Source: an uncultured Acidobacteriia bacterium
GTDB lineage: Bacteria > Acidobacteriota > Terriglobia > Bryobacterales > Bryobacteraceae
Direction of reading: 5' to 3'
NCBI GenBank assembly: GCA_903892565.1
Contig: CAITIX010000121.1
Location: forward strand, 1 to 64,000
DNA length: 64,000 bases
In this document: one piece after another, positions 41,482-51,183 of the stretch
Layout: each line of letters begins with the position of its first letter
How positions within the stretch are numbered: the first letter of the stretch is position 1
Position numbers and translations under genes: made by a program
The notes under the pieces: generated by a model
Seen by the model: the letters and a program-made list of their open reading frames with translations, nothing else
Told to the model about the DNA's origin: nothing
The model's database searches: none

Positions 41482-41760
41482 GTGATCCGGTCGTTTCGCG
41501 ATAAGGACACCCAGGAACTCTTCCGGCAGCACCGAGTGCCGCGACTGCAGAGCATCGAACGCGTTGCGCTCCGGAGGCTGGTCCAGATCGACAGCGCCTC
41601 CGAACTTCGCGATCTCGCGTCGCCACCAGCAAACCGTCTCGAGACATTGAAAGGAGATCGATTGGGACAATACAGCGTCCGCATCAACGATCAATACCGG
41701 GTGTGTTTTCGCTGGAAAGACGGCGACGCGCTCGACGTCGAGATCACGGACTACCATTAG
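41482..41760 (+). CDS. higB: HigB-type (RelE superfamily) toxin
   Basis: A 92-residue toxin expected to cleave mRNA at the ribosome. The family blocks IRSFRDKDTQELF, RKLVQID-like RRLVQIDSASELRDL, LEALKGDR-like LETLKGDR, QYSVRINDQYRVCFRW and EITDYH match HigB. Toxin-first order is the HigBA hallmark. The GTG start has no Shine-Dalgarno sequence and lies 6 nt behind an extended -10 box. The antitoxin starts 12 nt after the stop. Confidence 0.93.
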   Translation: MIRSFRDKDTQELFRQHRVPRLQSIERVALRRLVQIDSASELRDLASPPANRLETLKGDRLGQYSVRINDQYRVCFRWKDGDALDVEITDYH

Positions 41761-41772
41761 GGGAGGCTCACA

Positions 41773-42081
41773 ATGAAACGTAAATCAGGCCAAATTCGCT
41801 TTCCACATCCCGGTGAAACCATCCTGGAGGACTACCTCAAGCCTCTCGGGTTGAGCATCAACCGCTTGGCCATCGAACTACGCGTTCCCGCGACGCGTAT
41901 GGGAGAGATCGCTCATGGCCGTCGATCGATTACCGCAGATACGGCTCTGCGCCTGGCGCGCTACTTCAACACAACGCCCAAGTTCTGGATGAATCTGCAG
42001 GCATCCTACGATCTGGCCGTCGCGGAAAGCACCAAGGCGAAGGAAATCAAACGAACGGTTCAGCCTCGCAAAGCCGCCTAG
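41773..42081 (+). CDS. higA: HigA-type antitoxin
   Basis: A 102-residue helix-turn-helix protein of the Xre/HigA type (HPGETILEDYLKPLGLSINRLA, MGEIAHGRRSITADTALRLARYF, FWMNLQASYDL). It neutralises HigB and usually represses the operon. AGGGGAGG precedes the ATG by a few bases, so it has a strong ribosome binding site in contrast to higB. That would favour antitoxin excess. Confidence 0.94.
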   Translation: MKRKSGQIRFPHPGETILEDYLKPLGLSINRLAIELRVPATRMGEIAHGRRSITADTALRLARYFNTTPKFWMNLQASYDLAVAESTKAKEIKRTVQPRKAA

Positions 42082-44848: not shown

Positions 44849-45724
44849 TCAGCCCGCGCGCCTTGCGTGCACAATCCTGCGCGAGAACCAATGTCCCGCC
44901 GGACGCAGCATGCCGTCGTTGTTGCCCACGGCTTCCACGCTTGCAAAGCCCAGCTTCTTCAGCACCTGTTTGAAGCACGCTTCGTTGGGCAACCACCAGC
45001 AAATATCGTCTTCGCCGAGCTTTTCGCCGCCGCGATAAATCATCGCCGGGGCATCGTCCGGATTTCCCGGCATCTCTTGCGCGACGATTAACGTCCCGCG
45101 GCACATCTTCGCCGCCGCGACTAAAGCATCAAAAGGACGCAACGTGTGCACCAGAATATCGCCCAGGAAAACGAGGTCAAAACTCGGGCGACCCAAATTC
45201 TCCGGTGAGATATCGTAAATCGAACTGTAGCGCCGGACGACTCTGGAGCCCAACAGGCGGGCACACAGCCGGAACGGCGCATCCAATAAATAATGATGCA
45301 GCTCCGCCGCCGAGTACTCGCGGACCAAACCTTCGAGCTGATCCGCCGAATGCGGCACGATCATATGCTGGATCGTCTTGAGCAGAGTGCTCGTCTCCTG
45401 GCCCGGGAAGCGATCCAGCATTTCGAGCGACGGCAAATCGACCGACGTCACCTGCGCGCCCCGACGCTCAAACTCGAACGTCCAGAAGCCGCTGGCGGAG
45501 CCGATGTCGAGCACCGTCATGCCATCCATGCGCTCCGGTAATTGAAACGCATCGAGCTTGTCGCGGTAATCGTACATGCCGGGCGTCGTGAGGCCTTCGG
45601 CAAGATCCACCGTGTGATACCAGTAATAGCGGTCGATGTCCGCGACGCCCATCTGCTGCAAGCGGGCATTGAATTTCGCGACGTCCGCCGCGTATTGTTC
45701 GACAACGGAAACAGTAGTGGACAT
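44849..45724 (-). CDS. SAM-dependent methyltransferase, CmoB/DUF1698-like
   Basis: A 291-residue methyltransferase. The segment WYHTVDLAEGLTTPGMYDYRD is like the N-terminal region of CmoB-type enzymes, and VLDIGSASGFWTFEFERRGA is the SAM loop. VFLGDILVHTLRPFDAL marks the post-core. CmoB makes carboxymethoxyuridine in tRNA; this relative could act on tRNA or a small molecule. Start and Nramp stop overlap by one base (TGATG), so the two are translationally coupled. The longer frame into the Nramp gene is not used. Confidence 0.75.
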   Translation of the reverse strand: MSTTVSVVEQYAADVAKFNARLQQMGVADIDRYYWYHTVDLAEGLTTPGMYDYRDKLDAFQLPERMDGMTVLDIGSASGFWTFEFERRGAQVTSVDLPSLEMLDRFPGQETSTLLKTIQHMIVPHSADQLEGLVREYSAAELHHYLLDAPFRLCARLLGSRVVRRYSSIYDISPENLGRPSFDLVFLGDILVHTLRPFDALVAAAKMCRGTLIVAQEMPGNPDDAPAMIYRGGEKLGEDDICWWLPNEACFKQVLKKLGFASVEAVGNNDGMLRPAGHWFSRRIVHARRAG

Positions 45725-47007
45725 CAGGCTTTCACCGCAAAGTAGACCATCCCGGCCGTCAGCACCAGCATGACAATAGCCGTAGACCAGGCGATCAGAT
45801 TCTGCCAAATGTTATTCGTATATTCCTGCATGATTCGTTTGCGATTCACGAGCATCAACATATAGAAAAGCACGAATGGCAGCAGGACGCCATTGGCCAC
45901 CTGCGAAAACAGCATTACTTTTAAGAGCGGCATGTGCGGAAGCAGCACAAACCCGGCCCCGGAGACGATCAACAGCGTATACAGCCAGTAGAAAATTGGA
46001 GCCTCGGAAAAGCGCTTCTCCACGCCCGACTCAAAGCCCAAGCCTTCGCAAATATTGTAGGCCGTGGCCAACGGCAGAATCGCCGCCGCCAGCACCGACG
46101 CGTTCACCAACCCGATCGCAAACAGCGCGCCGGCAAAGCGTCCCGCGAAGGGCACCAGCGCCTTGGCCGCGTCCGCCGCGTCCGTGATTTCCCCGCCCCC
46201 GGATTTGTAAATCGTCGCCGCGCACGCCACCACAATGAAGAACGCAATCACGTCCGTTACGATGCAGCCGACGATCACGTCCCACCGGCTCAGCGAATAA
46301 TGGCGGCGGTCCACGCCCTTTTCGACAATCGACGCCTGCAGATAGAACTGCATCCACGGCGTAATCGTCGTGCCGATCAAGCCGACGATCATGATGATGT
46401 ACTGTTGATCGCCATGAAACTGCGGCACGAGCGTGTCATGCAGCGCGAGTTTCCAGTCGGGCTTCGCCAGATACGCCGAAATCGGATACGTGAAATAGAT
46501 CAGCGAAAACAGGATCAGCATGCGCTCCACAGGCTTGTAGCGCCCACGCACAATCACCAGCCACACCACGGCAGCACCCACAGGAACGGATAAATATCGA
46601 TTGACGCCGAACACGCCCATGCCGGAGGCGATGCCCGCAAACTCGGCCGCAATGTTGCCGAAATCCGCGATGCTCAAGATCGCCATCGTGATAAACGTCG
46701 CACGCAGGCCAAACTCTTCGCGGATTAAATCCGAAAGTCCTTTGCCGGTAACGGCCCCCATACGCGCGGCCATCTCTTGCACCACAATCAGCGCGATGGT
46801 CGTCGGGATCAGCGTCCACAGCAGCGAATAGCCGAACTTGGCTCCCGCCTGCGAATAGGTGAGGATGCCGCCGGGGTCATTATCGACGTTGGCCGTGATA
46901 AATCCGGGCCCCATGACCGACAAAAAGGCGATAATCCGGTACCGGAACATCGACAGATTGGCTGTCCGGCGCACTAACGGCTTCGGGATGGAGTGTTCGC
47001 CTCTCAC
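45724..47007 (-). CDS. Nramp-family divalent metal transporter, atypical metal site
   Basis: A 427-residue inner-membrane protein with about 11 helices. The helix 1 motif is D44-P-G-G47 where canonical Nramps have DPGN. The helix 6 motif is T216-P-W218 where canonical Nramps have MPH. These positions normally coordinate Mn/Fe. The combination resembles the bacterial Nramp-related magnesium transporter clade, so a metal other than Mn/Fe, such as Mg, is plausible (inference). The start is a GTG at 47005-47007; the ATG at 46950 is an alternative. It is coupled to the methyltransferase gene. Confidence 0.85.
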   Translation of the reverse strand: MRGEHSIPKPLVRRTANLSMFRYRIIAFLSVMGPGFITANVDNDPGGILTYSQAGAKFGYSLLWTLIPTTIALIVVQEMAARMGAVTGKGLSDLIREEFGLRATFITMAILSIADFGNIAAEFAGIASGMGVFGVNRYLSVPVGAAVVWLVIVRGRYKPVERMLILFSLIYFTYPISAYLAKPDWKLALHDTLVPQFHGDQQYIIMIVGLIGTTITPWMQFYLQASIVEKGVDRRHYSLSRWDVIVGCIVTDVIAFFIVVACAATIYKSGGGEITDAADAAKALVPFAGRFAGALFAIGLVNASVLAAAILPLATAYNICEGLGFESGVEKRFSEAPIFYWLYTLLIVSGAGFVLLPHMPLLKVMLFSQVANGVLLPFVLFYMLMLVNRKRIMQEYTNNIWQNLIAWSTAIVMLVLTAGMVYFAVKA

Positions 47008-48271: not shown

Positions 48272-48408
48272 GCCCCCGTCGCCACAAGCGGCGTTGAATG
48301 AGCACGATACGCGCGAATTCAAAGCGCCCGCTGGCATCGGATCTGGAATCCGCACATTTCCCTTCGTGCAGCGGCTGCGCTATGCCGCTAGAATGAAGAT
48401 GCACTTTG

Positions 48409-49215
48409 ATGCTGGCTCAACACGACCTTTCCAAACTGAGTGTTCGTCAATTCGCCGAGCGATTCCGCGGCGAGATGATCCCCCTCAGCAATACGTTCTC
48501 CTACTTCTGCGCCTCCACGCCTCTTTCGGAAGAAGACCTGAAAGAATACCTGGAGGAGCCTGTGGCCGCGCTGCCTCCCTCCGTTGCGGCGGCCTTGCCG
48601 AAGATCTCCATCTTCCTGGTCCCGTATCTGGAACGCGCCGGAGCTCCGGAAAAGAAGAAAGCTCCCGCGGCGCCAACGCTCGTGCCTTCGGCCGATTACG
48701 TGTCTATCGAGCGGCCTCCTGACGAATTGCTCTCGACGTCCACGCAATTGAAGCTGGGCGATGAAACTGTGCTGGCCTTCGCGCTGAAGGATCAGGAAGT
48801 GGCGGAGTATCACTATCGCCTGTATCATTTGCTCGCGACGTTGATGGCCGATCGCACCGCCACTACCGCGGATGGCCACAAGGTCGACAATCGCTACTCG
48901 CACTTGTTGCGTGAAGAGCTCAGCGCCGACGTTCACGGCGAAGTCGACGAACCCAGCTGGCGCTTGAAGCAGACACTACGCCGCCCAGGTGGATCTCGCA
49001 TGGGACAACGCGGCAAGGCCTTTAGCGAATACGAGCGGCAATCGTTCATCGATACGCTGACGCTTTACTTGCACGGCATCTGCTGCGACATCGACGTCGA
49101 CACCGGCCCGCGCCAGTTGCCCAGCCGCAATTTGCGCAAGCGCCTGATGTTGCTGGAACAGTTGTTCCCGCCGCCCAAGGGCTACGTCATTTTCCCCGAG
49201 CAGTTGGAAGCCTAA
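48409..49215 (+). CDS. Hypothetical cytoplasmic protein, 268 residues
   Basis: Not recognised. There is no signal peptide or membrane helix. Charged helical stretches (LSVRQFAERFRGEM, DQEVAEYHYRLYHLLATL) and a middle Pro/Ala/Lys linker suggest two domains. A TTG directly precedes the ATG, so either could be the start. TAGAAT (48389-48394) lies 14 nt upstream of the ATG. It ends 15 nt before asparagine synthase and is probably in the same operon. Confidence 0.6.
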   Translation: MLAQHDLSKLSVRQFAERFRGEMIPLSNTFSYFCASTPLSEEDLKEYLEEPVAALPPSVAAALPKISIFLVPYLERAGAPEKKKAPAAPTLVPSADYVSIERPPDELLSTSTQLKLGDETVLAFALKDQEVAEYHYRLYHLLATLMADRTATTADGHKVDNRYSHLLREELSADVHGEVDEPSWRLKQTLRRPGGSRMGQRGKAFSEYERQSFIDTLTLYLHGICCDIDVDTGPRQLPSRNLRKRLMLLEQLFPPPKGYVIFPEQLEA

Positions 49216-49230
49216 CGGAGCGCGTCCGAC

Positions 49231-51183
49231 GTGTGCGGCATCGCCGGATTCACTCATCTACGCCGCCCCGCCGACGCCTCGCGCATTTGGACCGTTACGC
49301 GGGCGATCACGCATCGCGGACCAGATAAACAGGACATCTGGGAATCCGAGCGCGTCTCTCTAGGCGCCGTTCGCCTGCGCATCATCGACCTCACGCATGG
49401 CGATCAGCCGATGTTCTCTCCCGACGGTGGGACGGTTCTCGTTTTTAACGGAGAGGTCTACAACCACGTCGAACTTCGTCGCGAGCTTGAAGCACTAGGC
49501 CATCGCTTCGAAACGCATTGCGATACGGAAGTCGTCCTGCATGCATTTCTGCAATGGGACGTCGAAGCATTCCCGCGCCTGCGCGGCATGTTCGGCGCGG
49601 CGTTTTGGAACGAAGCGCAACGGCGGCTCGTGCTGGTGCGCGATCGCCTCGGCATCAAGCCTCTCTATTACACGTTGCGCCAGGGCGATCTCTACTTCGG
49701 CTCGGAGATGAAGACGATCCTGCTGCATCCGGAAATCCCGCGTCGCGTGAATCCGTCGGCGCTCGATCGCTATCTCTCACTCAACTACATTCCCGGCACC
49801 GAGACGATGGTCGAAGGCATCGAAAAGCTTTCGCCCGGATGCTGGATGGAATGGCGCGGCACGGGCTCCGCGGGCACAGGAGCAGTTGCCATCCATCGCT
49901 ACTGGGAGTTAAATTTTCAACCCGAAGCACGCTGGGATCTGCCCTCCGCCAAGCAGGAGCTCGATCGTCTGCTGCGCGAGTCGATCAAAGAACATCTCAT
50001 CTCGGACGCGCCTCTCGGCGTGTGGTCGAGCGGCGGGCTCGATTCGTCGACCATCCTGCACTATGCCGCCGAGCAGTCGTCTTCGAAATTAAAAACGTTC
50101 TCCGTATCGTTTCGAGGACGCAGCTTCGACGAGACTCCGTACTTCCGCGAAATCGCGAAGCACTACGACACGGATCATCACGAGTTCGACCTGAATCCCG
50201 AGGTCGACCTGCAATCCGCCATTGAAGATTTCGCAACCTATTCCGACGAACCGAGCGCCGACGCGGGCGCGCTGCCCGTGTGGTTCCTTTCGAAGATGTG
50301 CCGCCAGGATGTGACCGTAGCGCTTTCCGGCGACGGCGCTGACGAGCTTTTTGGCGGATACAAAACGTACATCGCAGATCGCTACGCTAAACACCTGCGC
50401 CGGTTGCCGCGTGGCATTCGCGCTCTTGCAGCCCGCGCCGCGCACTTGCTGCCCGTATCCGATGAAAAGATCGGCCTGGATTACAAAATCGTGCGCATGC
50501 TGGAAGGCTCGCTGCTCGATCCCGTCGACGCGCATTTGTATTGGAACGGAACGTTCGGGGAAGAGCAACGCCGTGCGCTGCTCGCAAATCCCACGTGGCA
50601 GGCCGCAAGACTTCGTTTGCCCGGCAGCGTCTTTGCAGGCAAAAACGTCGGCGAGTTGAACCAGTTCTTGTGGCTCGATCAGATGTGCTATTTGCCCGAC
50701 GACATCCTCAACAAGTGCGACCGCATGAGCATGGCGCATTCGCTCGAAGTGCGTCCGCCCTTCCTCGATCACCGCATCGCCGAATTCGCCGCGCAGTTGC
50801 CCGAAGACCTGAAGATTCGCGGCTCACAACTGAAATTTATCTTGCGCGACTTGATGCGCGACAAGCTGCCTCCGGCGATCATGAATCGCGGCAAAGAGGG
50901 TTTCGATATCCCCGCGCATCATTGGCTCCGAACCACGCTGCGGCCTTTGCTGACGGAAACCTTGAGCGAGAAGAACGTCCGCGCGTCGGGATTATTTCAT
51001 TGGGAAGCCGTCGAACGCGTGCTGCGCGCGCATCTCGAACGCCGCGCCAATCTCGGCTATCACTTATGGGGATTGTTAGTGCTCTTCCTGTGGCTGAAGC
51101 GCTGGCAGATCGAGCCGCCCGGCGAATGGACTGCGCCCCGGAATGTCAGCGCAGGGCAAGGTTCGCTCTGCGACATCCTCTAG
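49231..51183 (+). CDS. asnB: Glutamine-hydrolysing asparagine synthase
   Basis: AsnB-type enzyme of 650 residues. The N-terminal glutaminase domain starts with catalytic C2 (MCGIAGF) and contains RGPDKQD. The C-terminal ATP-pyrophosphatase domain has WSSGGLDSS and SGDGADELFGGYKTY. Such enzymes make asparagine, and paralogues amidate cell-wall or secondary metabolites. No biosynthetic genes are adjacent. The start is GTG 49231 with GGAG about 10 nt upstream. A paired repeat element follows the stop. Confidence 0.93.
   Translation: MCGIAGFTHLRRPADASRIWTVTRAITHRGPDKQDIWESERVSLGAVRLRIIDLTHGDQPMFSPDGGTVLVFNGEVYNHVELRRELEALGHRFETHCDTEVVLHAFLQWDVEAFPRLRGMFGAAFWNEAQRRLVLVRDRLGIKPLYYTLRQGDLYFGSEMKTILLHPEIPRRVNPSALDRYLSLNYIPGTETMVEGIEKLSPGCWMEWRGTGSAGTGAVAIHRYWELNFQPEARWDLPSAKQELDRLLRESIKEHLISDAPLGVWSSGGLDSSTILHYAAEQSSSKLKTFSVSFRGRSFDETPYFREIAKHYDTDHHEFDLNPEVDLQSAIEDFATYSDEPSADAGALPVWFLSKMCRQDVTVALSGDGADELFGGYKTYIADRYAKHLRRLPRGIRALAARAAHLLPVSDEKIGLDYKIVRMLEGSLLDPVDAHLYWNGTFGEEQRRALLANPTWQAARLRLPGSVFAGKNVGELNQFLWLDQMCYLPDDILNKCDRMSMAHSLEVRPPFLDHRIAEFAAQLPEDLKIRGSQLKFILRDLMRDKLPPAIMNRGKEGFDIPAHHWLRTTLRPLLTETLSEKNVRASGLFHWEAVERVLRAHLERRANLGYHLWGLLVLFLWLKRWQIEPPGEWTAPRNVSAGQGSLCDIL

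Follow-up and report, generated by a model that had tools for sequence, protein, structure and literature searches.

An acidobacterial Nramp-family protein with an altered metal site is a typical NRMT-type transporter

The gene at 45724..47007 on the minus strand of the window (the whole stretch of 64,000 nucleotides that was analysed) encodes an NRMT-type Nramp transporter of 427 amino acids, as judged from the ORF call, the Pfam and PDB matches, the tree and the fold. Most probably it is an ordinary acidobacterial NRMT that lets Mg2+ into the cell, and Mn2+ at least in vitro, without proton coupling. Its family, site residues, predicted fold and distribution were established in this analysis; for the substrate, the absent proton coupling and the hydrated binding of the ion we infer from EleNRMT of Eggerthella lenta (PDB 7qia, 7qic, 7qji and 7qjj), a member of the NRMT clade of SLC11/NRAMP and the closest solved relative. 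The protein is typical of a family that was already known, and the finding is real but ordinary.

Metal site and likeness to EleNRMT

The ORF starts with a GTG codon and gives a full-length Nramp-fold product, which scored 330 bits against the Pfam family Nramp (PF01566; cut-off 29.8). Among all PDB chains the top match was EleNRMT (7qia, 380.8 bits), the next being BfraNramp and DraNramp at about 97 bits (97.4). Identity to EleNRMT was 47% over 398 columns versus 21-24% to the canonical Nramps. The published signature of the NRMTs is DxxG with TxxA or TxxT, whereas canonical Nramps carry DxxN with A or C-xxM and the plant aluminium transporters (NRAT) DxxN with AxxT (PMC8806188). An earlier note on this DNA had pointed out that the protein has DPGG and TPW at two places belonging to the metal site, and alignment with EleNRMT and with the canonical Nramps of solved structure confirmed this. 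DPGG corresponds to residues 44-47 (D44-P-G-G47, 46867..46878, minus strand; EleNRMT D55 and G58) and TPW to residues 216-218 of the motif T213-T-I-T216-P-W218 (46354..46371, minus strand; EleNRMT T224, A227 and W229), which are exactly the metal-site positions of helices 1 and 6. The protein shows the NRMT signature in its TxxT form and lacks the canonical combination of DPGN and A/CxxM-PH; at D44, G47, T213, T216 and W218, DraNramp, ScaDMT and BfraNramp carry D, N, A, M and H, respectively. E122 in helix 3 (46642..46644, minus strand; EleNRMT E133) and Q369 in helix 10 (45901..45903, minus strand) were retained, the latter being the counterpart of Q379, which is required for transport in EleNRMT (PMC8806188). 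Both proton-path histidines of helix 6 were found to be replaced, their positions being occupied by W218 and L223; EleNRMT has Trp and Asn there (PMC8806188).

The window protein and EleNRMT have the metal and gate residues D, G, T, E, W and Q in common, and both have lost the proton-path histidines. They differ in that Thr216 stands where EleNRMT has Ala227, and in that the Pro of DPGG is an Ala in EleNRMT (DAGG). With the canonical MntH proteins (DraNramp, ScaDMT and BfraNramp) the window protein shares the LeuT/Nramp fold, the metal-site Asp, the helix 3 Glu and the helix 10 Gln; it differs from them by its low identity, by having Gly instead of Asn, Thr instead of Ala, Thr instead of Met and Trp instead of His at the site, and by its position in a separate clade.

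DPGG together with T-T-[IV]-T-P-W was present in 51 of the 54 orthologues of at least 65% identity, which rules out chance or a sequencing error as the source of the motif. The altered site is not unusual: it turned out to be the known NRMT signature, fixed across an acidobacterial clade, and the apparent anomaly is removed. In the earlier note the loss of the helix 6 methionine had been compared with carriers of Mg or Al. The comparison stood for the magnesium branch and failed for aluminium: NRAT (8ont) is likewise without the helix 6 Met but has the signature DxxN-AxxT and scored 66 bits with the window protein, and both motif and score rule out NRAT-like aluminium transport.

Substrate and the set of Mg and Mn transporters

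EleNRMT transports Mg2+ and Mn2+, not Ca2+, and does so without proton coupling; no detectable Mg transport is left in its T224A mutant, and transport is strongly compromised in D55A and Q379A (PMC8806188). The counterparts of T224, D55 and Q379 are all kept in the window protein. By analogy, Mg2+ would enter the cell through this LeuT-fold protein of the Nramp family down the electrochemical gradient, uncoupled from protons. The ion would be held by D44, T213 and a backbone group of helix 6, while the change of the helix 1 Asn to Gly47 and of the helix 6 Met to Thr216 would take away the soft ligand and widen the pocket enough to accommodate an Mg2+ that stays largely hydrated. With both histidines of helix 6 replaced (by W218 and L223) and the aspartate of helix 3 lost, the proton path would be gone, and the Mn2+ supply of the cell would likely be left to the separate canonical MntH.

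Magnesium is likely, though not proven, to be the main physiological substrate of the window NRMT, because the NrmT of Acidobacterium capsulatum (Acp2977), the one acidobacterial NrmT assayed by complementation, complemented Mn uptake better: a Mg-import mutant was rescued only at low millimolar Mg, a Mn-import mutant fully (PMC4072509). Such behaviour, seen in B. subtilis, and the tighter binding by EleNRMT of Mn (Kd ~100 uM) than of Mg (~400 uM) (PMC8806188) are what could be expected if the protein were an NRMT by descent that serves these bacteria chiefly for the import of Mn2+ at low affinity and carries Mg2+ to a minor extent. This seems rather unlikely, as the genome also encodes a canonical MntH, the Thr that determines Mg transport is retained and many genomes with an NRMT are without any classical Mg importer. 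The far greater natural abundance of Mg than of Mn counts against it as well.

Magnesium import by the NRMT, the preferred reading, can be set beside the transporters of the genome itself, which has three Nramp-family genes. Besides the window NRMT there is the canonical MntH (L001:820-2718, G000:C224), a protein of 632 amino acids with DPGN/ATVMPH and a C-terminal Usp domain fusion. In related genomes MntH frames of ~620-670 amino acids were common, consistent with the same fusion. The third type (L003:1360-2676, G000:C269) carries DPSG/TTISPY, has EleNRMT as its best PDB match (143.7 bits) and falls in a separate, well-supported clade; it may correspond to the outgroup that Cellier called 'orphan' (PMC10606218). 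Neither CorA nor the MgtE channel domain was found in a search of this genome, and an MgtA-type ATPase was found in two pieces on two contigs. Given that ATPase and the third Nramp, the NRMT need not be the sole Mg importer. The absence of an M-box near the gene and the Thr at the place of EleNRMT's Ala227 likewise count against the preferred reading.

The NRMT was present in 56 of 61 related genomes, and 30 of these 56 were without CorA, MgtE and MgtA, as counted by hand from full-size CorA matches (>190 bits) and from MgtA matches over the cut-off plus one fragment. Among the near-complete genomes MgtE occurred in 3/3 without an NRMT versus 7/43 with one (p = 0.008, a value that ignores shared ancestry; most of the 61 genomes are drafts, which can miss genes). 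CorA and MgtE are often lacking in Acidobacteriota, and the survey lends modest genomic support to the view that the NRMT is a main route of Mg import in this phylum.

Neighbouring genes and the MgtE_N companion

Directly downstream lies the gene for a SAM methyltransferase of 291 amino acids (44849..45724, minus strand). This protein, METHYLTRANSFERASE, begins at an ATG that overlaps the NRMT stop in the sequence TGATG (45722..45726, minus strand), where TGA and ATG share two bases. The coupling described in the earlier note is therefore present at the sequence level. Its designation 'CmoB-like' is weak: the methyltransferase stayed under the cut-off for every family, with 31.6 bits for the CmoB model against a cut-off of 275, and a PDB search yielded a marginal methyltransferase match and nothing better. 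One could imagine that transporter and methyltransferase work together, for instance in moving a metal complex that the methyltransferase makes or modifies. The overlap in the window would agree with this, as would two relatives in which the genes follow each other in the same order, a short gap apart. It is nonetheless very improbable. The adjacency was confined to the window and these two relatives (3/61 genomes), which also undoes the gene's supposed meaning as a partner; close relatives with an 81-87% identical transporter lacked the methyltransferase genome-wide, and it was unlinked in four genomes and present in G029, which has no NRMT. The methyltransferase is probably an incidental, lineage-specific neighbour, and a functional link to the NRMT is unlikely.

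The conserved companion of the NRMT is instead a stand-alone cytosolic PRC-MgtE_N-CBS protein, which probably acts as a Mg sensor or regulator. It was found in 55 of the 56 genomes with an NRMT and, among the better genomes, in 43/43 with an NRMT versus 0/3 without. At the B-type loci and some of the A-type loci (clades B and A of the tree below) its gene lies directly upstream of the NRMT, often overlapping it; in the genome of the window (L148:6058-7365, G000:C302) and in close relatives it is on another contig or far from the NRMT. Such adjacency, a common trait of NRMTs that is neither universal nor defining, is absent from the window locus. That an MgtE_N gene adjoins NrmT has already been reported (PMC4072509), and the small addition made here is that the companion is kept even where it is unlinked. 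By description, the window protein resembles the NrmT proteins of Clostridium acetobutylicum (Ca_c0685 and Ca_c3329) and A. capsulatum (Acp2977), which belong to the Nramp-related branch and in whose genomes a companion of the MgtE_N type is likewise conserved. It differs from them in that its MgtE_N gene is not adjacent and in that the locus is without an M-box, as is that of A. capsulatum. No M-box or other known riboswitch was found near the gene, and neither the window nor 14 related loci gave an Rfam M-box match; an upstream M-box is a trait of some NRMT members and does not define them.

Two other gene pairs in the window were noticed. At 41482-42081 (plus strand) adjacent ORFs of 92 and 102 amino acids resemble, by eye, a toxin-antitoxin pair of the HigB-HigA type, and at 48406-51183 (plus strand) an ORF of 269 amino acids is followed by an asparagine-synthase-like gene, a pair kept near the NRMT in some relatives.

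Phylogenetic placement and predicted fold

In a 55-row maximum-likelihood tree, from which the very long branches L169 and L178 were excluded and in which EleNRMT is the sole characterised NRMT, one branch (96/88) set all NRMT-type rows and EleNRMT, 37 rows together, apart from the rest, and the canonical Nramps formed a branch of their own (100/99). Forcing the window protein in with canonical MntH was rejected by the AU test (p-AU 3.5e-6). The AlphaFold2 model of the protein (pLDDT 89.1, pTM 0.87) had EleNRMT as its top fold matches in the PDB (7qji/7qia, TM 0.85/0.91, E 4.2e-27; DraNramp 1.1e-17). Phylogenetic placement had been proposed earlier as a check, with a position inside canonical MntH as the refuting outcome. 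That outcome did not occur: PDB scores, tree and fold alike bore out the kinship with the Nramp-related magnesium transporters and not with canonical MntH. The idea of a canonical Mn/Fe MntH whose metal site has drifted or been damaged, to which the shared Pfam family and a low score with the MntH model (152.9 bits, far under the 430-bit cut-off) might point, can be dismissed, since this placement refutes it, more than 50 orthologues share the motif, which hence is not damage, and a true MntH (DPGN/MPH) lies elsewhere in the genome.

Within the NRMTs, a 91-row tree placed the window protein inside an acidobacterial clade A (100/99), adjoining relatives of clade B with 54-62% identity. TxxT was present in 53 of the 54 clade A rows, and B has mostly TxxA. 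The TxxT type of clade A stands in tandem with the TxxA type in some genomes and has become separated from the MgtE_N gene in others; it is doubtful that it represents an NRMT subtype of distinct function, with an ion preference or a regulation of its own.

A-type and B-type genes were seen in tandem at L020, L026, L028 and L096/L153, which suggests that the gene was duplicated long ago and that one copy or the other was lost later. A TxxA-type copy in G024 was considered as a pseudogene and rejected as such, being shortened merely by the end of its contig. Among the B-type NRMTs (e.g. L103 and L106-L112) Asn or Asp aligns with the helix 3 Glu (EleNRMT E133) in many rows of the automatic alignment. 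Finally, L171 and L172 are highly divergent PF01566 proteins with GPGT/TTFVSY, in which the metal-site Asp is apparently missing.
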